This document shows positions 2-34,220 of a DNA stretch of 34,220 nt, one piece after another; position 1 is the first letter of the stretch; each line of letters begins with the position of its first letter. The position numbers and the translations under genes are program-made. A model generated the notes under the pieces. The model was not told where the DNA came from and did no database searches. It saw only the letters and a list, made by a program, of their open reading frames with translations. This DNA is from a virus. The stretch spans positions 1-34,220 of IMG/VR virus record IMGVR_UViG_3300025889_000464, one strand, 5' to 3'.

Positions 2-73
2 CCAATGCAGCCTGGCGACAACGAGCTGCTAGGTGGCGGCATGAGTATCCACGCACCATGGAAACGTGACTAA
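2..73 (+). CDS. C-terminal end of an unknown protein (partial)
   Basis: An open frame enters from the left edge and ends at the TAA at 71-73. The last residues read GGGMSIHAPWKRD. The GTG start of the lysin gene (66) lies inside it, an 8-base overlap typical of co-translated phage genes. The short fragment has no recognisable domain. Its place directly before the lysin suggests a late gene, perhaps a distal tail protein, but that is inference from position only. Confidence 0.5.
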   Translation, partial: PMQPGDNELLGGGMSIHAPWKRD

Positions 74-1268
74 ATCTCCAGTCAGGCTTGCTGACCTGTT
101 CCGATACTACAAGCACGGCACGCCACATCAAATGGCGGCCATCGCTGAATTGGAGGCGGCGTTATTAAAGGCTGCACCTAATGCCTTTAATAGGGACCAG
201 CCGTGGTTCAAGACCTGGAGCCAAGCCGGCAAACAACATGATTACGCACCGGCCGTAAAACTCATCAAACAGTTTGAAGGCTGCCACCTCCAAGCCTACG
301 CCGACCCTCTGCGTGGCTGGAGCGTCCCCACCATCGGCTTTGGCACCACCCGCTACCCCGATGGTCGCGCAGTAAAGCGCGGCGACAAGATCAACGTCAT
401 CGAAGCCGAAAACCTACTCGAAGGCGACATCGCCAAAATTGCCAAACATCTCTCCGCCGTCATCCCCCACTGGAGCGGCATGCTGATCACCCAGCAGTCC
501 GCTTTAATAAGTTTTGCGTACAACGTCGGCCCAAATTTCTACGGCAAACCTGGCTTCGAGACCATAACCGCCAAGCTACGCGACAAAGCCTGGGCCAATG
601 TCCCGGCCGCCCTAAAGCTTTACTGCAACCCCGGCACTGCATCAGAAGCCGGCTTGTTACGCCGCCGTAAATCCGAAGCCGCCCTGTGGACACAAAGTGC
701 ACCAAAATCCCCCACGCAACCCGCCCCTATTTCCCCCACGGCTACCTCAGTAAATCTCAAAGTCCCCTATGAGCACCAACTCGACAACGGCCCCACCGGA
801 TACCGCGAGTGCTTTAGCTCCAGCTGCGCAATGGTGGCCCGCTACTGGAACAAAATCGCCGGCGACTACGAATACAACCGCATCCGCCGCCAATTCGGCG
901 ACAGCACTGACCCCCAAGCCCAACTCCTCACCTTAAAAACCCTCGGCCTCCGTGCCACTTTCGAGATGGAAGGCACTACCGGCATCCTAGAAAATCTACT
1001 GCGCTCAGGTCTTCCCACTCCTGTTGGCTGGCTCCATCGCGGCCCCGTCACTGCCCCCTCGGGCGGCGGCCACTGGACAGTAGTCAGCGGCTTCAACCCA
1101 ACCCACTTCATCCACCAAGACCCAAACGGCGAAGCAGACACCAAAAACGGTGGCTACCTTAACAGCAACAAAGGCGCCAACATTGCATATTCCAGAAGCA
1201 ACTGGCTACGCCGCTGGCTAGTCGATGGCCCAGCCTCCGGCTGGTACTTAAAAATCCGCCCCGCCTAG
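66..1268 (+). CDS. Endolysin: GH24 lysozyme plus C39-like peptidase domain
   Basis: A cell-wall hydrolase that should break host peptidoglycan at lysis. Residues about 60-208 form a GH24 (T4-lysozyme type) muramidase: E71 in KQFEGC, D80 and T89 in PTIGFGTT fit the family's Glu-Asp-Thr catalytic set, and SFAYNVG is a typical later motif. A Pro/Ser/Thr-rich linker (about 209-228) joins a second domain (about 229-398) that resembles C39-like peptidases: Q238, C249 (YRECFSSSC), H336 (GGHWTVVSG) and D352 (HQDPNG) fit an oxyanion Gln and a Cys-His-Asp triad. It starts at GTG, overlapping the gene before. There is no signal peptide, so a holin is expected, though none is clear here. The GH24 call is firm; the peptidase call is by motif. 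Confidence 0.88.
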   Translation: MTKSPVRLADLFRYYKHGTPHQMAAIAELEAALLKAAPNAFNRDQPWFKTWSQAGKQHDYAPAVKLIKQFEGCHLQAYADPLRGWSVPTIGFGTTRYPDGRAVKRGDKINVIEAENLLEGDIAKIAKHLSAVIPHWSGMLITQQSALISFAYNVGPNFYGKPGFETITAKLRDKAWANVPAALKLYCNPGTASEAGLLRRRKSEAALWTQSAPKSPTQPAPISPTATSVNLKVPYEHQLDNGPTGYRECFSSSCAMVARYWNKIAGDYEYNRIRRQFGDSTDPQAQLLTLKTLGLRATFEMEGTTGILENLLRSGLPTPVGWLHRGPVTAPSGGGHWTVVSGFNPTHFIHQDPNGEADTKNGGYLNSNKGANIAYSRSNWLRRWLVDGPASGWYLKIRPA

Positions 1269-14693: not shown

Positions 14694-14923
14694 CCCACCG
14701 GGGCATCGAACAGCATGAATAAGGATGCTGCAAACTGTTGCCTGCGCAAAAAAGTAACACTGGTCGGACCAACTGGTGTTGTTGGCCTTTCGAGCGCAGA
14801 TAAAGGTTCCCATCGAGGACATGACGTGGCACCGCCCTCTAGTGGGACTTTGGCGTCGTGCAAACAGCCCTTCGAGTAAGTCCCCACTCCACCCTGCCCC
14901 CGACTCACCCCACTACCAACCGA
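14694..14923. other. Intergenic stretch before the HNH gene
   Basis: 230 bases with no clear gene. A 54-codon frame (ATG 14715 to 14879) exists but has no ribosome binding site and unconvincing composition. It contains the short inverted pair GGACCAACTGG/CCAAC-type near 14765. It may be a remnant displaced by the AT-rich HNH gene that follows. Confidence 0.4.
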
Positions 14924-15414
14924 TGGCACGAGTTTACAAAGTCCTACCTCCAGTTGCAGAATTACAGGAAGTTTTCAAGTACAACAAAATAACAGGAAAA
15001 TTATATTGGCGGGTATCACCAGCTAATAGTGTTTCCAGCGGAGATTTATGCGGCACAGTGTGTAAACACACCGGTTACACGCGTGTATGCTATAAAAAAG
15101 AGCTATATTTGGCACATCGAATCATTTGGGCTATAGTTTATAAGCAGGATCCCGGACAAATTCTTATAGATCACATAAATAGAATAAGGACAGATAACCG
15201 TGTAGAAAATTTAAGAATGGCTACGTGCGCACAGAATGGCTCTAACAGGCCAACCAAAGGTGCCTACCTCACGCGCAACGGGTGGAGAGCCCAGATTCAG
15301 ACAAAAGGTAAAAATGTTCACTTAGGTTATTACAGCACAGAAGCTGAAGCTGCACAGGCGTATCAAAAAGCGGCAATAGAGCTAAAAGGGCAGTTTTATT
15401 TTCCCTACGCTTGA
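14924..15414 (+). CDS. HNH homing endonuclease with AP2 DNA-binding domain
   Basis: 163 residues. Residues about 10-75 carry the beta-rich lead-in (ITGKLYWRVS, LAHRIIWAIV), followed by the HNH core IDHINRIRTDNRVENLR (D83, H84, N86, N96) and an AP2 domain (about 113-160: GAYLTRNGWRAQIQTKGKNV, then YYSTEAEAAQAYQKAA). This is the common free-standing phage homing endonuclease form. The gene is AT-rich compared with neighbours, a sign of transfer as a selfish element. It is not in an evident intron; the nuclease gene after it is intact. Confidence 0.88.
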
Positions 15415-28479: not shown

Positions 28480-29226
28480 ATGGCCACCGTCCTTTCGGGC
28501 ACCTCCGGTGCTCTCTATTACACCCCAGCTGGTACATCCGTTACCACGCTGACTGCTTCCGCCTTCCCCGCCACGGGCTCGGACATCACCGTCGGCTCGT
28601 ATCTCGGCTTTAGGGTTGACGACCCTGTGACACTCGCCTATCCGGTCGGCGCCACCACAACCAACGCCATTGCAGCTGGCGCGTACTTCGTGAAAACGTA
28701 TGTCGCTAGCACCGGCGTCATGACCATCAGCTCCACCGTCGGCGGCGCAGCCGCAACGGCCACCGGCCTACCCAGCGGCTTCGGCGCCAGCTTCGCCAGC
28801 ATCACCTACACCGCCCCCGTAGTAGTGGGCTCTGTGCGCGACTGGAGCTTCGAGATCACCCGCTCTGAGATCGACGTCACCACCATCGGTCAGGAAGCCG
28901 GCCAGTACACCCCATTCCGCACCTACATCGCCGGCTTCGCTGACGGCACTGGTTCGGCCACGGTGTACAACACCGACGACGACAGCAACATGGCCAACCG
29001 CCTGATCGAGGACGTCATCCAGCGCCAGCAAACCGGCGCCCGCATGAAGCTCTACATCGACCGCGTAGTTGTCTCGGGCACCGTCAACGACACCCTCAGC
29101 CGCTCCATCAACGTCCCGGTGATCCTGACGTCCGCCAGCCTGACCGTCAACCCCGACGACGGCCAGTCGGTCGCCATCAACTTCCGCCCCTCCGAAGCCC
29201 CCACCTTCGACCTCTCCAAGTCCTGA
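28480..29226 (+). CDS. Major tail (tube) protein
   Basis: 248 residues, beta-rich with many Thr, Ser, Gly and Val. VVVGSVRDWSFEITRSEIDV followed by TTIGQEAGQYTPFRTYIAGF is typical of tail tube proteins of siphoviruses; TLSRSINVPVILTSASLTVN closes the fold. It forms the hexameric tube around the tape measure. Own leader and own terminator suggest independent high expression. Confidence 0.82.
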   Translation: MATVLSGTSGALYYTPAGTSVTTLTASAFPATGSDITVGSYLGFRVDDPVTLAYPVGATTTNAIAAGAYFVKTYVASTGVMTISSTVGGAAATATGLPSGFGASFASITYTAPVVVGSVRDWSFEITRSEIDVTTIGQEAGQYTPFRTYIAGFADGTGSATVYNTDDDSNMANRLIEDVIQRQQTGARMKLYIDRVVVSGTVNDTLSRSINVPVILTSASLTVNPDDGQSVAINFRPSEAPTFDLSKS

Positions 29227-29250
29227 TAACCTTCCGGTTGTCCCCCGTCC

Positions 29251-29275
29251 GCCCCGCTATCCAGCGGGGCTTTTT
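29251..29275 (+). terminator. Rightward terminator after the tail-tube gene
   Basis: CCCCGCT / AGCGGGG with a 4-base loop, then CTTTTT, about 25 bases after the stop. Strong intrinsic terminator. Confidence 0.85.
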
Positions 29276-29280
29276 CATGG

Positions 29281-29295
29281 TTATTGCGTTACAAT
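29281..29295 (+). promoter_or_regulatory. Candidate promoter of the chaperone gene
   Basis: TTATTGCGTTACAAT directly after the terminator and 23 bases before the ATG. TACAAT is a good -10 box; the rest recalls the CTAnTGTTACACA family. Confidence 0.38.
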
Positions 29296-29318
29296 ACAAA
29301 CTAGATCACTAAGGTTTT

Positions 29319-29678
29319 ATGCCTGCTGCTACTCCCACCAGGGCAATCGACCGCCTCCGCAAGGCCGCCAACCTAGAGCCCACCAAAAAGAGCGTGGAGC
29401 TATCCGACGGCACCACGTTCGAGATGTGGGTCAGCCCACTGACCATGGCCGAGCGCGAACGCGCCCAAAAGCAGGCCAAGTCGGACGACGCCAACGCCTT
29501 CGCCCTCCAACTCCTGATCTCCAAAGCCCTCGACGAAAACGGCACCAAGCTCTTCGCGCCCGGCGAAATCGACATCCTCAAAAACGAAGTCAAAGACAAG
29601 GACCTCCAAACCCTAATGCTGGCCATCCTCACCGACGACTCCGAGTTAGATACTGATATGAAAAGTCCTACAAAGTGA
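29319..29678 (+). CDS. Tail assembly chaperone, G part
   Basis: 119 residues: KSVELSDGTTFEMWVSPLTM, then AERERAQKQAKSDDANAFAL and KDKDLQTLMLAILTDDSELD. The pattern and place between tail tube and tape measure fit the short tail assembly chaperone (lambda gpG type), which keeps the tape measure soluble. The frame stops at TGA 29676-29678, but a second frame carries on a typical T domain (next entry), so a longer G-T product by +1 frameshifting is likely. Confidence 0.78.
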   Translation: MPAATPTRAIDRLRKAANLEPTKKSVELSDGTTFEMWVSPLTMAERERAQKQAKSDDANAFALQLLISKALDENGTKLFAPGEIDILKNEVKDKDLQTLMLAILTDDSELDTDMKSPTK

Positions 29679-29853
29679 ATTAAAAAAAGATAATTGGTTA
29701 CTACTATCTTTGGGTGTAGCTAAAGAACTTGGGTACACTTTGACCCGCTTGTGGGCCGAAGTAACACCTCAAGAGTTGTTATTGTGGTCGGCCTATTTTG
29801 CCTACTTAAACGATGAACAAGACAAGGCTGTACAAAAAGCTAGACGCCGTTAA
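29662..29853 (+). CDS. Tail assembly chaperone, T extension (+1 frame)
   Basis: Open only in the +1 frame after the stop at 29659-29661: VLQSELKKDNWLLLSLGVAK, then LTRLWAEVTPQELLLWSAYF and a basic end. This is the usual T domain of chaperone fusions. No ATG or GTG precedes it. At ATG AAA AGT (29658-29666) a lysine tRNA could move one base along AAAA and go on with GTC, giving MK-VLQSE. From here the DNA turns AT-rich. The last 14 bases overlap the antisense endonuclease gene. Confidence 0.66.
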   Translation, partial: KVLQSELKKDNWLLLSLGVAKELGYTLTRLWAEVTPQELLLWSAYFAYLNDEQDKAVQKARRR

Positions 29854-30439
29854 AAGCTCTAGCTACACTCCACCCTCTCCGTAAACGCGTGTTCAGCGTG
29901 TTGCGATTTATACCCAGTTCTTCCGCCCAGGCGGCTAGAGGCTGGGTTTTTCCCTCGTGTGTCAACAGCCTATTTGTTGTCTTATTTCTAGCTTGTACGT
30001 TCAGCGAAGCCCACTCGCAGTTACGTGGATCGTACGGTCCATCATTGTCTATTCGATTCAGCGATTTATCGTCTGGACGGTCCCCCATATCCGCGTAAAA
30101 ATTTTCAAACTGGTACCACCTCGTACATACCGTTATACCTCTACCCCCGTACCGCGCAAACGACTTATTTTTGGGGTTTCGGCAGCGGTCAAGCATCATC
30201 GACCACAACCGGTAAATAGCGGTTTTGGACTTTTGATGCGTTTTGTTTGCCCCCGGCACACTTTCCCGCCAAATACACCCGCAACTGCAGGTCAAACCTC
30301 GCGTCAAACTGCTTCGATAGATGCCTTTTACGGCGCTACCGCAACTGCACCGACACCACCAGTAACTCGGGCGTTGCTCGCACGGGCCAATTACGGTGAG
30401 ACGTCCAAATGTCTTCCCAGTAAGGGGTATGCTTTTCAT
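29840..30439 (-). CDS. HNH homing endonuclease, antisense in the tail operon
   Basis: 199 residues. The N-terminus (FGRLTVIGPC, C29, C31, C33 and C51, C53, C55) is a zinc-binding start common in phage endonucleases. Residues about 75-150 are the HNH part (IYRLWSMMLDRCRNP, RYGGRGITVCTRW, SLNRIDNDGPYDPRNCEW). The end (PLAAWAEELGINRNTLNTRL) is a DNA-binding helix-turn-helix. It lies opposite to all neighbours, between chaperone and tape measure, and only its last 14 bases overlap the T part. A selfish element inserted into the intergenic space. Confidence 0.87.
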   Translation of the reverse strand: MKSIPLTGKTFGRLTVIGPCEQRPSYWWCRCSCGSAVKGIYRSSLTRGLTCSCGCIWRESVPGANKTHQKSKTAIYRLWSMMLDRCRNPKNKSFARYGGRGITVCTRWYQFENFYADMGDRPDDKSLNRIDNDGPYDPRNCEWASLNVQARNKTTNRLLTHEGKTQPLAAWAEELGINRNTLNTRLRRGWSVARAFNGV

Positions 30440-30508
30440 GTTGGCTCAGGACGTGTGAGTTGACCACGCTCCGGGGGCGGCAACCCGCTGGAGCAACCTA
30501 ATCCTACC

Positions 30509-30543
30509 AAAAAACGCCGCCGCTAACCCCGACGGCTTTTTTA
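30509..30543. terminator. Bidirectional terminator between endonuclease and tape measure
   Basis: GCCGCC / GACGGC around CTAACCCC-type loop, with TTTTTT on the right side and a run of A (T on the minus strand) on the left. On the minus strand the stem GCCGTC / GGCGGC pairs fully with one G-U. Facing right it would stop read-through from the chaperone into the tape measure, so that gene needs its own promoter in 30544-30578 or antitermination. Confidence 0.6.
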
Positions 30544-30578
30544 CGGCGTAGACTGGCGTAATAGGTAGTAAACCCGCA

Positions 30579-33500
30579 GTGGCCGCTTCGTACCCCGCCC
30601 TAATCGAACTGCGCGTCAACGGCATTACGCAGGTCACGCGGGTACTTGACACTATTCAAAAACTAGACGCAGCTTTAGTAAGTATAAAAAATACGCCGAT
30701 TGCTATCGACGCAGGAAATGCAACAGACGGCATACGGGTACTCAAAAAAGAGTACATGGGTTTTGTCGGTGGTTTATCGCAAGGTAAGACCCAGTTAGCT
30801 AGCACCACCGCAGGAATAAACCAACAAGCTGCCGCCATGCGTCTGTTGGCAGCCAATGCAAAAATAGGAGGGCAAGCGTTTAATCTACTAGTTCAAGGAG
30901 CAGAGCAGGCACGTCAAAAAGTTTCTTTAACCGCAGGGTTAGCGGAAATAGCTGCTGTAGCTAGTCAAGTAAAGGTAGGTAGAACTGCTCCTACGCAAAG
31001 TTATAAGGGAGTACAAGAGTTACTCCGCATGGAAACAAGTATAGCTAAAAATACGGCATCTTTAGACTTATTTCAGCAAGAACTACGCCAAACATTATCG
31101 TTTGTAGATATAGGCAGCAAAGATTTTCGTGAACTTAGCCAAGCTATAGACAGAGTAGGTCTGGCTTTAGACGTAGCTTCAAATAAAGCCCGAAAATTTG
31201 GACCGGCCTTACCTCCTGGTTTTACAGAGGCCGGGGCTACAAAGTCTAAAACTACCCGGCGCGGCAATTCTAACGTAGGCGGAGCAATCAGTAGCGCCCT
31301 TATCGGCGGCGGCTTTCCGTTGCTGTTCGGACAAGGAGCAGGTGCCGCTGCCGGCGGCGCGTTGGGCGGCTTAGCCGGCGGCTTACTGGGGGGAGGTTTT
31401 GGCTTCGCACTTTCGATTGTAGGTACAGCATTAGGTGACGTTATAACAAAATCGGAAGAATTTAATCGCTCTTTAGCCGCACTAAACAGTGGTTTAAGTG
31501 CCGCCGGAGATAGTTCTCTTACTACTGCAAGCGACGTAAGTAAACTTGCTTCAAATTTAAGTGTAACCAAAGAAGAAGCTATAGAACTTTTGAGTACGTT
31601 TAAGCAGTTTAGCAACGGAGATACGAGAGAAGCTCTAGCTGGTCTGTTTGCTCCTGTTGGTGGGGCCGGAACTTTTGAAGCTATAGCAAAAGCCGGTCTG
31701 GACGAAAAAAGTGCGCTAACGTCTATATTTTCTTTACGCAAAAAAATTGGAAACGAAGCAGCTACCCAGTTAGCTTTGCAGTTAAGAGGTGTAGGCGTGG
31801 GCGCTACGCAAGCCGCCTTACTAGACATTATATTAAAACGCAGCATACAAATAAGTGTAGCTCAAACAAGTCAAGTTCAATTTACAGATACTCTATTGAG
31901 TATATGGGAAAATATAGTTGCCGGTGTCAGTACGGCTCTGAGTTTAGCAATACGTTTTATTGCTAAACTACAGGAAGGTACTTTAATTAAACTTCCTTTC
32001 CTCGATCAAATAGCCGGTGTTTTAGGGGGAGTAACTGCCAGAACAGACAAACAGATAGCAGAGCAGCGCGGACAAAACCGCGACAAAGAACTTAAAGCAG
32101 ACATAGCTGCAGTACGTAAGGCGTTAGCGGAAGAAACAAAAATATCCGCCGTAGAGGATAAATTACGTACAGAAGAAAAAACGAAAAACAACAATGCCCT
32201 GTTTAACGAACAAGCGAGGCAGGCAGAGCAGCTGGCGCGTAATCAGATCGCGCTCGACAATGCTATTTTCCGCAACAAAATGGCCCTAGCGGATGAAGAG
32301 TTTGCTGCCCGCCAACGCATAGCTGAATTACAAGGACGTCTAGCGGAAGCAGGTGCCTTTGGGGCACAGCGCGAGGTGCTCGCCCTCATAAACGCAACAA
32401 GCAGCAGCCAGAGCGAGTATTTCGCGCAAGCACGCCAACTGTCTAGTGCTATTGCGCAGGCAACCCAAGAACTCAAATCCGCCAACGCCATGGTCGGCGC
32501 CCAACAAGCAGGCGTCGTACAAACTGGCGCGGGCGGTATGTCACAAGGCCGCTACATACAGGGCGGTATAGGCCCGCGTGGCGCAAATCAGTACGGTCCC
32601 CACTTCGACATCAAACGATCCGACGGCGGTTACTACTCGCGCACAGCTTTAGACAAATACGTGCAAGTAAACGGCCGGCCTCTTTCAAGCGGTGTAACAG
32701 TGCCCGGCGGAGAGTACGGCGCACCGCGCAGTTACGGACCACACGCCGGCAGGGATTACGCCTTTAGCGGTAAAGCTGCCATGACCCTAACAGGAGGGGC
32801 GAAGTTCATTAGCAGTAAGGCGAGCTCGTACGGAGACGCGACCGCTTTCATGACCCCAGACGGAAAAGTCTACAAAGTAATCCACGGCAAATTTGAAGGC
32901 ACGACCCAAGCACCTCCGCCACAGCAAATACCGCAAAGTCTCGCCAAAGGTCAGTCTCAGGTAATAGGAGCCACTGGTGACGTTGCCGTCGCGCAGGCCA
33001 ATGAAGCAGCACAGATACAGCGCAAAACAAAATTACTAGCTTTACTGCAGCAAGAACGTGACCTGAAAATTCAAATTGCCGTCGCACAAGGCACAGAATT
33101 TCTGCGCAACGCGCAAGAGCAGACACTACAAATTGAACGTGAAATAGAAAAACGCAAAATCCGTAACCGCCTGGCGCTAGAAGGAGTGGCCCCTGAGATC
33201 ATCGAGGGTGAACTCCGGGTGTACGACATTACAAAACAGAAAGAAGAAAAGTTAAAGGAACTAACTACAGCCTTATCTCTTTTAACAAAAACTCAACAGT
33301 ATGCTACTGAAGCTACACTTCAATCCGCTTTAGCGGATCTCGACAAAAAACAGACCACAGGTTCTTTAACGCTTGCCGAACAGACACTACAGAGTGAACT
33401 GCAGCAGCGGTTGACACTCCTACAGCAAATAAAAACCCTAGAAGGTGGAACACCCGCCGTCGTGGAAGGCATTCGTGGCGCAGCTGCCGCCCAGGTACAA

Positions 33501-34220
33501 ACGACACCTGAACTTCTAGAGGCTGAAGCCGGCAAAGCAAAACTAGCGCTAGAAGCACTCGTCGAGCCAGCCAACATGATCACCAGCGCCGCCGCTGGCA
33601 TTGGCGATGCGTTTGCCACATCATTCAAGGGTGTCATTGATGGCAGCATGACTGCCAAACAAGCCTTAGGCAGTTTCTTCAAGTCGGTTGCGGATATGTT
33701 CCTTGACATGGCGGCACAGATGATCGCCGCATGGATCAAGATGGCCATCCTAAATACCGTCATCAAGATATTTGGCGGCGGTTTCAGTGGCGGCTTTGGT
33801 GGTAACAACAGCTTTAGCAGTTTTGATGCAGGCGGTGCTCAGGCATTTTCGGCACCAGCGTTATCAACTGGCGCCGGATTCGGTGCCGGAGGCGCGACAA
33901 ACTTTTCCGGTGCACTCGGCAATGTCGCCTTTAACCCGGCCGCATTTGCCGAAGGTGGCTTCGTCACCGGCCCAACCAGCGCTGTTATTGGCGAGGGTGG
34001 CGAATCGGAATATGTCATTCCCGCCAGCAAAATGCAATCAGCCATGGCCCGCTACAGCCGTGGTGCTCGTGGTGAAAGCGTCATTGCCGGCAGTGGTGGC
34101 AACAGTGAAGGCGGCACTGCTACAGCCGCTGCTGGGCCTATGGTGGTAGATGTCCGCTACAACGTCGAACGCATCAATGAAGTGGAATACGTTACCGCCT
34201 CGCAGTTCCAAGCTGGAATG
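30579..34220 (+). CDS. Tail tape measure protein (partial, runs off the right edge)
   Basis: At least 1214 residues, open to the window end, starting at GTG 30579. It sets tail length and helps DNA entry. Residues about 235-285 are a long Gly/Ala/Leu-rich hydrophobic stretch, a second lies near 445-465, and a third near 1040-1060 (MAAQMIAAWIKMAILNTVIK). Long coiled-coil parts follow (about 490-600 and 800-1000). Residues about 650-780 resemble an M23-type peptidase (YGPHFDIKR, GPHAGRDYAF, VYKVIHGKF). Near the end AEGGFVTGPTSAVIGEGG and SEYVIPASKM are classic tape measure text. The first half is AT-rich, the second GC-rich, so it is a mosaic. Confidence 0.9.
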   Translation, partial: MAASYPALIELRVNGITQVTRVLDTIQKLDAALVSIKNTPIAIDAGNATDGIRVLKKEYMGFVGGLSQGKTQLASTTAGINQQAAAMRLLAANAKIGGQAFNLLVQGAEQARQKVSLTAGLAEIAAVASQVKVGRTAPTQSYKGVQELLRMETSIAKNTASLDLFQQELRQTLSFVDIGSKDFRELSQAIDRVGLALDVASNKARKFGPALPPGFTEAGATKSKTTRRGNSNVGGAISSALIGGGFPLLFGQGAGAAAGGALGGLAGGLLGGGFGFALSIVGTALGDVITKSEEFNRSLAALNSGLSAAGDSSLTTASDVSKLASNLSVTKEEAIELLSTFKQFSNGDTREALAGLFAPVGGAGTFEAIAKAGLDEKSALTSIFSLRKKIGNEAATQLALQLRGVGVGATQAALLDIILKRSIQISVAQTSQVQFTDTLLSIWENIVAGVSTALSLAIRFIAKLQEGTLIKLPFLDQIAGVLGGVTARTDKQIAEQRGQNRDKELKADIAAVRKALAEETKISAVEDKLRTEEKTKNNNALFNEQARQAEQLARNQIALDNAIFRNKMALADEEFAARQRIAELQGRLAEAGAFGAQREVLALINATSSSQSEYFAQARQLSSAIAQATQELKSANAMVGAQQAGVVQTGAGGMSQGRYIQGGIGPRGANQYGPHFDIKRSDGGYYSRTALDKYVQVNGRPLSSGVTVPGGEYGAPRSYGPHAGRDYAFSGKAAMTLTGGAKFISSKASSYGDATAFMTPDGKVYKVIHGKFEGTTQAPPPQQIPQSLAKGQSQVIGATGDVAVAQANEAAQIQRKTKLLALLQQERDLKIQIAVAQGTEFLRNAQEQTLQIEREIEKRKIRNRLALEGVAPEIIEGELRVYDITKQKEEKLKELTTALSLLTKTQQYATEATLQSALADLDKKQTTGSLTLAEQTLQSELQQRLTLLQQIKTLEGGTPAVVEGIRGAAAAQVQTTPELLEAEAGKAKLALEALVEPANMITSAAAGIGDAFATSFKGVIDGSMTAKQALGSFFKSVADMFLDMAAQMIAAWIKMAILNTVIKIFGGGFSGGFGGNNSFSSFDAGGAQAFSAPALSTGAGFGAGGATNFSGALGNVAFNPAAFAEGGFVTGPTSAVIGEGGESEYVIPASKMQSAMARYSRGARGESVIAGSGGNSEGGTATAAAGPMVVDVRYNVERINEVEYVTASQFQAGM

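Follow-up and report, generated by a model that had tools for sequence, protein, structure and literature searches.

Sequence evidence for a +1 programmed frameshift at a lysine codon in the tail assembly chaperone gene of a probable cyanophage

Gene content of the locus

We analyzed the complete 34,220-base virus record IMGVR_UViG_3300025889_000464, referred to below as the window, which would represent a siphovirus-like phage. The host is probably a marine cyanobacterium and, within these, probably Synechococcus, the nearest isolate being KBS-S-2A. The relevant features lie in the tail gene region:

28480..29226 (+), putative major tail protein gene, 5' of G, assigned by position only (gene order following the S-2L annotation)
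29319..29678 (+), G, tail assembly chaperone, 119 aa (PHROG 344, fold match to 2OB9)
29659..29661 (+), T-frame TGA that bounds the shift on the 5' side
29661..29666 (+), proposed +1 slip site AAA_AGT, with AAAAG at 29661-29665 (in-frame AAAAG in +1 relatives)
29662..29853 (+), T extension, 63 codons and a stop, entered by the proposed shift to give a fusion of 177 aa
29840..30439 (-), HNH endonuclease gene on the opposite strand, overlapping the end of T (PHROG 374)
29646..30511 (no strand), block occupying the position of T in -1 relatives (end of G, slip site, T and HNH gene)
30512..30526 (+), what is left of the replaced T, Lys Arg Arg Arg and a stop
30579..34220 (+), tape measure protein gene, incomplete at the window end (PHROG tape measure families, best E 4e-10)

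G sits between the tail tube protein gene (identified by position only) and the tape measure gene, with the HNH gene intervening; the putative major tail protein had no PHROG match. A terminator-like hairpin of 8 pairs followed by a T run lies at 29251-29280 (+), 3' of the putative tail tube protein gene and 5' of G. Far upstream, a protein encoded at 66-1265 (+) combines a phage lysozyme domain with a weak C39/C70-like cysteine peptidase domain.

Overall, G resembles a tail assembly chaperone at both the sequence and the structure level. It matched the tail assembly chaperone family PHROG 344 (E 2.4e-6), as did G from 9 of 12 relatives, while a PHROG of unknown function was matched more strongly and the match to Pfam TAC_13 (E 0.006) fell below the cut-off of that family. 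In a structure model built from 16 sequences, of moderate confidence (pLDDT 68), the predicted fold best matches a tail assembly chaperone of the HK97 type: the HK97 chaperone 2OB9 occupied PDB ranks 1 and 2 (E 7.2e-4 and 2.9e-3; TM about 0.45). A profile search against the sequences of solved structures returned no relevant match. T displayed a weak match only, to a PHROG of unknown function, and is conserved as a protein, with 83% identity to its counterpart in relative L022 and 79% to that in L085.

Frame geometry and the slip site

G ends at a TGA (29676-29678), and T lies in a frame offset from that of G by +1 (or -2). After the TGA at 29659-29661, the T frame continues for 63 codons (KVLQSELKKDNW...QKARRR) to a TAA at 29851-29853. 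The first-pass annotation had described the end of G, the displacement of T by one base, and the stop limiting where the shift can occur, and all of its coordinates hold. The zero-frame codons 3' of the ATG at 29658-29660 read AAA AGT CCT ACA AAG before the G stop is reached, and the T-frame TGA on one side and the G stop on the other therefore confine the shift to these codons. Within this overlap, AAAA is the single in-frame run of four equal bases (as determined on relative L083, identical to the window). The window, whose T is in the +1 frame, does not present a classical -1 slippery heptamer.

Frame classes among relatives

To place this geometry in context, we compared the G and T frames across related loci. 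A first set comprised 160 loci, i.e., the best 80 of at least 590 and the best 80 of 87 confirmed relatives; the window itself, L001 (a second cut of it), and L002 (the KBS-S-2A region) brought the set to 163 rows. Both parts were present in 162 of the 163, with T in the -1 frame in 107 and in the +1 frame in 55. The +1 rows shared AAA AGY preceded by ATG, ACC, or CCC, while most -1 rows carried GAC CCA AAA or GAC CCA AAG, i.e., the heptamers CCCAAAA and CCCAAAG. The isolates KBS-S-2A, S-2L, S-H1, and MED4-184 were all in the -1 frame, and the single-cell virus AG-345-A17 was in the +1 frame, with TTG AAA AGC TAA.

The latter defined a distant +1 group, which we examined through AG-345-A17 and the best 80 of its 506 confirmed relatives. 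All 81 were in the +1 frame, with AAA AGC or AAA AGT at the site in 79 and AAA AGG in two. For 65 of the 81, only five bases, AAAGC or AAAGT, separate the T-frame stop from the G stop, and in these cases the T-frame stop (TGA or TAA, from TTG A or TTA A) ends on the first A of AAAA. This five-base gap is the tightest localization of the shift.

Two profile scans (best 80 of at least 598 and best 80 of at least 587) raised the total to 406 rows, namely L002 to L407 without L167, plus the window and leaving out L001. Among the matches listed, 401 of the 406 loci displayed both parts, the five others being dropped because one part was missing or the parts were >200 bases apart; T was in the -1 frame in 220, in the +1 frame in 181, and in the frame of G in none. 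Several loci come from the same contig, and collapsing rows that agreed in every base of the interval from 150 bases 5' of the G stop through the end of T left 305 distinct sequences, 168 in the -1 and 137 in the +1 frame, a ratio that is no census since these are best-N samples.

The two classes were separated by their sequence signals. An in-frame AAAAG was found in the overlap, i.e., within the last 20 codons examined, for all 137 distinct +1 sequences and none of the 168 distinct -1 sequences, against a background of 9 in-frame occurrences in 12,519 codons of the G genes of +1 rows. Conversely, an XXXYYYZ heptamer was present in 153/168 distinct -1 sequences vs 0/137 distinct +1 sequences, most often as CCCAAAA (105), followed by CCCAAAG (31), AAAAAAC (6), CCCAAAC (6), and AAAAAAA (5). 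The +1 rows share descent, so that these counts are inflated and do not amount to 137 independent tests; neighboring codons and tail lengths nevertheless vary widely among them while AAAAG is constant. The codon following AAA was AGC in 117, AGT in 11, AGA in 7, and AGG in 2, i.e., an AGN sense codon and never a stop waits at the site, unlike at a prfB-like shifty stop. Across 35 distinct +1 G ends from the first set, the slip lysine was always encoded by AAA, other lysines being encoded by AAA 122 times and AAG 165 times. Alignment of the AAAA site in relatives had been proposed as a check on the slip site, and its result across all distinct +1 sequences is consistent with both the AAAA/lysine-tRNA assignment and the +1 reading.

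Two smaller patterns were observed alongside these classes. The 15 distinct -1 sequences without a heptamer carried CCC AAG AAY (14, including L026 and L028), for which A-site re-pairing would be poor, or GCA AAG GAA (one). In L127, L128, and their relatives, a GAGGT- or AGGTG-like sequence lies at about start-codon spacing 5' of the ATG in ATG AAA AGC; this ATG is a possible internal start whose product would reach T only after the shift. No such sequence was found 5' of ATG AAA AGT in the window.

Proposed mechanism and alternative explanations

Taken together, we consider it likely, with good confidence, that the locus encodes a G/GT-type chaperone whose 177-aa fusion is made by a +1 slip of the lysine tRNA, and that slip site and T were gained by recombination. 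Most ribosomes would end at 29676-29678 and yield G. In a fraction, the lysine tRNA seated on AAA 29661-29663, with AGU waiting in the A site, would slip one base forward onto the overlapping AAA 29662-29664 and read GUC next, yielding the fusion ...DMK-VLQSELKKDNW... As in lambda, the two products G and GT would deliver tail tube protein to the tape measure protein. The +1 programmed frameshift is real and conserved, and very probably used.

The direction of the shift is the point on which an alternative has to be weighed most closely. A -2 shift gives the same frame, as the first-pass annotation had remarked, and would add one residue to the fusion; phage Mu uses -2 for this gene, according to the available text of a published account (PMC5009743). 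This part of the earlier remark stands, but as a mechanism -2 is weakened by the relatives. Under +1, the lysine tRNA re-pairs from AAA to AAA in 137/137 distinct +1 rows, while under -2 it would have to settle on UGA (ATG and TTG rows), UAA (TTA), CCA (ACC and CCC), or UCA (one TTC row). One re-pairing thus fits all rows under +1 and none is shared under -2, which favors +1. The argument rests on pairing rules, and we regard a -2 shift as unlikely.

Separate translation of T, by internal initiation or reinitiation and without any fusion, has precedents in T4-like phages and in Microbacterium phage subclusters, where, in the portions of the literature available, two chaperone open reading frames are described as apparently expressed separately. 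Among 46 distinct +1 T parts, 27 have a start-like ATG at T residue 14, but this ATG is equally common in -1 rows (53/85). In the T frame of the window, the first ATG, GTG, or TTG is the TTG at 29710, within the conserved core, and over the 137 rows the first start-like codon of T ranges from codon 6 to codon 43, with none in 5 rows and thus no conserved start. Separate translation would also leave the AAAAG of all 137 rows unexplained, and we hold it to be very unlikely. Slippage of RNA polymerase, which would generate mRNAs one base shorter or two longer, is suggested by the site being an A run. However, such slippage usually requires a longer run than the four A present here, and it would not account for the lysine-codon register of this run in every +1 row, making this explanation highly improbable. 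We give almost no credence to the view that the gene is broken or that the offset arose in sequencing or assembly. The window is a single metagenomic contig, and its identical twin (L003/L083, identical over the stretches compared) may be the same virus and so is weak evidence against such an error; however, the different contig L022 (74% DNA identity) has the same offset, as do 137 distinct sequences, and T is conserved as a protein. G and T in one frame, which the first-pass annotation had named as the sign of an indel error, occurred in 0/401 loci.

Returning to the +1 slip, we evaluated codon usage and potential stimulators around the site. In the head and tail genes of the window, AGT accounts for 3 and AGC for 59 of 161 Ser codons, and GTC for 102 of 173 Val codons. 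The codon that waits, AGT, is thus rare and the one read after the shift, GTC, common, which matches the direction PRFect demands for a forward site as far as the available text of that paper specifies. A hungry codon would not explain every case, however, since AGC waits in 117/137 rows and is not rare in the genes of the window. For the comparison of stimulators, the -1 site was picked by a simple rule and rows without such a site were dropped. On this basis, the mean strength of upstream Shine-Dalgarno-like pairing was higher in +1 rows than in -1 rows; the element is absent from the window (duplex energy -2.5 vs a mean of -7.4), though present in many +1 rows. Predicted downstream folding is modest in the window (z -2.35), and the mean z was -1.81 in the +1 class and -1.81 in the -1 class, in each case a modest excess over shuffles. 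When six near relatives were aligned, no convincing shared downstream structure emerged. Sequence analysis thus establishes no stimulator at this site.

Evolutionary switches between -1 and +1

We evaluated how often the frame changed from trees of G and T for 135 rows of the first set (best 80 of at least 590 and best 80 of 87) plus the window and KBS-S-2A. Parsimony required at least five frame changes on the G tree and at least three on the T tree, of which well-supported branches force only two on either tree. A single +1 clade was rejected on the G tree (p 0.0047), though no longer once the window row was omitted (p 0.087), and it was not rejected on the T tree (p 0.22). Without the L047-L072 group, the T tree gave p 0.66, with the one-clade tree scoring better than the free tree.

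G and T of the L047/L071 group are each placed among -1 rows. In the alignment, these phages carry two additional bases immediately before the common A run, which converts CCA AAA into ACC AAA A; the same A run may thus serve either direction. Tree position and alignment favor an independent switch in these phages (L040, L047, L049, L050, L064, L070, L071, and L072).

A probable recombinant block with an HNH gene

The window itself appears to have acquired its +1 arrangement in a different way. G residues 1-109 are 98% identical to those of L004, a -1 phage, while the closest T parts are those of the +1 contigs L022 (83%) and L085 (79%). GC3 is 0.76 in G but 0.37 in T, and none of the 160 loci, apart from the identical contig L003, displays so large a drop. 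At the DNA level, the match to L004 covers 28847-29645 at 95.5% identity and then 30512-30554; the matches to L005 and L007 likewise break at 29645 and resume at 30512, that to L023 stops one base earlier, at 29644, and restarts at 30512, and that to L006 breaks at 29645 with no later match. The right edge of the block still carries the final codons of a -1-type T (K R R R stop), followed by a GC-rich stretch and a T run. The gap between T and the tape measure gene is 45-110 bases in 16 loci with a placeable start, vs 726 in the window and 675 in L087.

The HNH protein encoded within the block matched the HNH endonuclease family PHROG 374 (E 8e-61) and also PHROG 3377; no Pfam HNH match was found for this protein (29840-30439). 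From its membership in the HNH family, the nuclease is a candidate free-standing HNH homing endonuclease, and among the loci compared its site is occupied in the window, L022, and L085 and unoccupied in, e.g., L004. L022 has the same arrangement as the window, with an HNH gene (58% identical) adjoining T, and L085 has a related HNH gene adjoining T (61%), while L087 and L090 carry an HNH_3 gene of another family in the same spot and on the same strand. All of these, including the window, are +1, and their T parts cluster together on the T tree (support 93). G of L022 has a different background, grouping with L058 and L062 (support 95). The same arrangement on another G background argues against an assembly chimera and suggests either a second transfer or an exchange of G. 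On these comparisons, slip site and T probably arrived together with the HNH gene by recombination, replacing a -1-type T.

Relation to known systems

Forward shifts in this gene are already reported in other phages, and the gene is otherwise ordinary. The available text of one report describes -1, -2, or +1 shifts for this gene in different tailed phages, with HSTV-2 very likely +1 (PMC5009743). In SPP1, a putative -1 shift is given for the chaperone and a +1 shift at CCCUAA for the tail tube gene, in the accessible part of that source (PMC6316719). Frameshift efficiencies of chaperone genes are cited as 6 and 7% for two bacterial loci in the portion available (PMC3711429). The available text on PRFect lists 350 forward and 2368 backward positive sites in a training set from SEA-PHAGES and states that no general +1 motif has been identified (PMC10885494). 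The earlier view that few +1 chaperones are described accordingly needs qualification: they are a minority in this training set, but not very few.

The window shares with lambda gpG/gpGT, KBS-S-2A, and L004 its gene order, a chaperone-like G, and a T near the end of G, and the T parts are homologous. KBS-S-2A (A AAA AAC) and L004 (C CCA AAG) have -1 sites, in contrast to the +1 site AAA_AGT of the window. HSTV-2 (very likely +1) and the forward sites of actinobacteriophages involve the same gene and direction, and they are likened to the window by gene and direction alone, the AAAAG rule not being stated in the parts of those sources available. Further +1 shifts in phage tail operons, again close to where a gene ends, are those of the SPP1 tail tube protein gp17.1* and of Listeria phage PSA, which differ, as far as the accessible descriptions go, in using the proline codon CCC before a stop or another codon and in affecting other genes. 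The yeast sites Ty1 CUU_AGG_C and EST3 CUU_AGU_U, according to the text available, involve P-site re-pairing with AGN waiting, as proposed for the window; they differ in using a leucine tRNA and a eukaryotic ribosome, and the likeness implies no kinship. Among the matches listed from open-access full texts, we found no +1 chaperone frameshifts in cyanophages, no AAAAG rule or both directions within one cyanophage chaperone family, and no frameshift direction transferred with an HNH block.

This chaperone displays an unusually clear evolutionary switch between -1 and +1. We lean towards viewing AAA_AGN as a distinct and widespread +1 class in aquatic phage tail chaperones, in which the lysine tRNA slips in the P site while a sense codon waits; the direction of recoding could flip around a conserved A run (in one group apparently through a two-base change 5' of it) and could travel between phages on a nuclease block. 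Forward frameshift signals are poorly defined, and this chaperone family offers a natural experiment: near-identical G proteins are fused to T by -1 or +1, the sequence rules separate cleanly in the sample, and the determinants of forward vs backward shifts become testable by exchanging a few bases. The block also suggests a route by which a recoding signal and the protein part that it serves may move together.

Nuclease genes have been found at the borders of exchange between phages (PMC10448857), and the homing-type nucleases at the borders of exchanged blocks described in the available text of that study resemble the HNH gene beside the tail-gene block of the window. The window differs from these cases in that the exchanged block changes the frameshift direction too, and its nuclease is a candidate homing enzyme. 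Elsewhere in the window, a second HNH gene at 14776-15411 (+) matched Pfam HNH_3 (E 3e-11) and has a weak AP2-like end; its Pfam family is the same as that of the nuclease adjoining T in L087 and L090.
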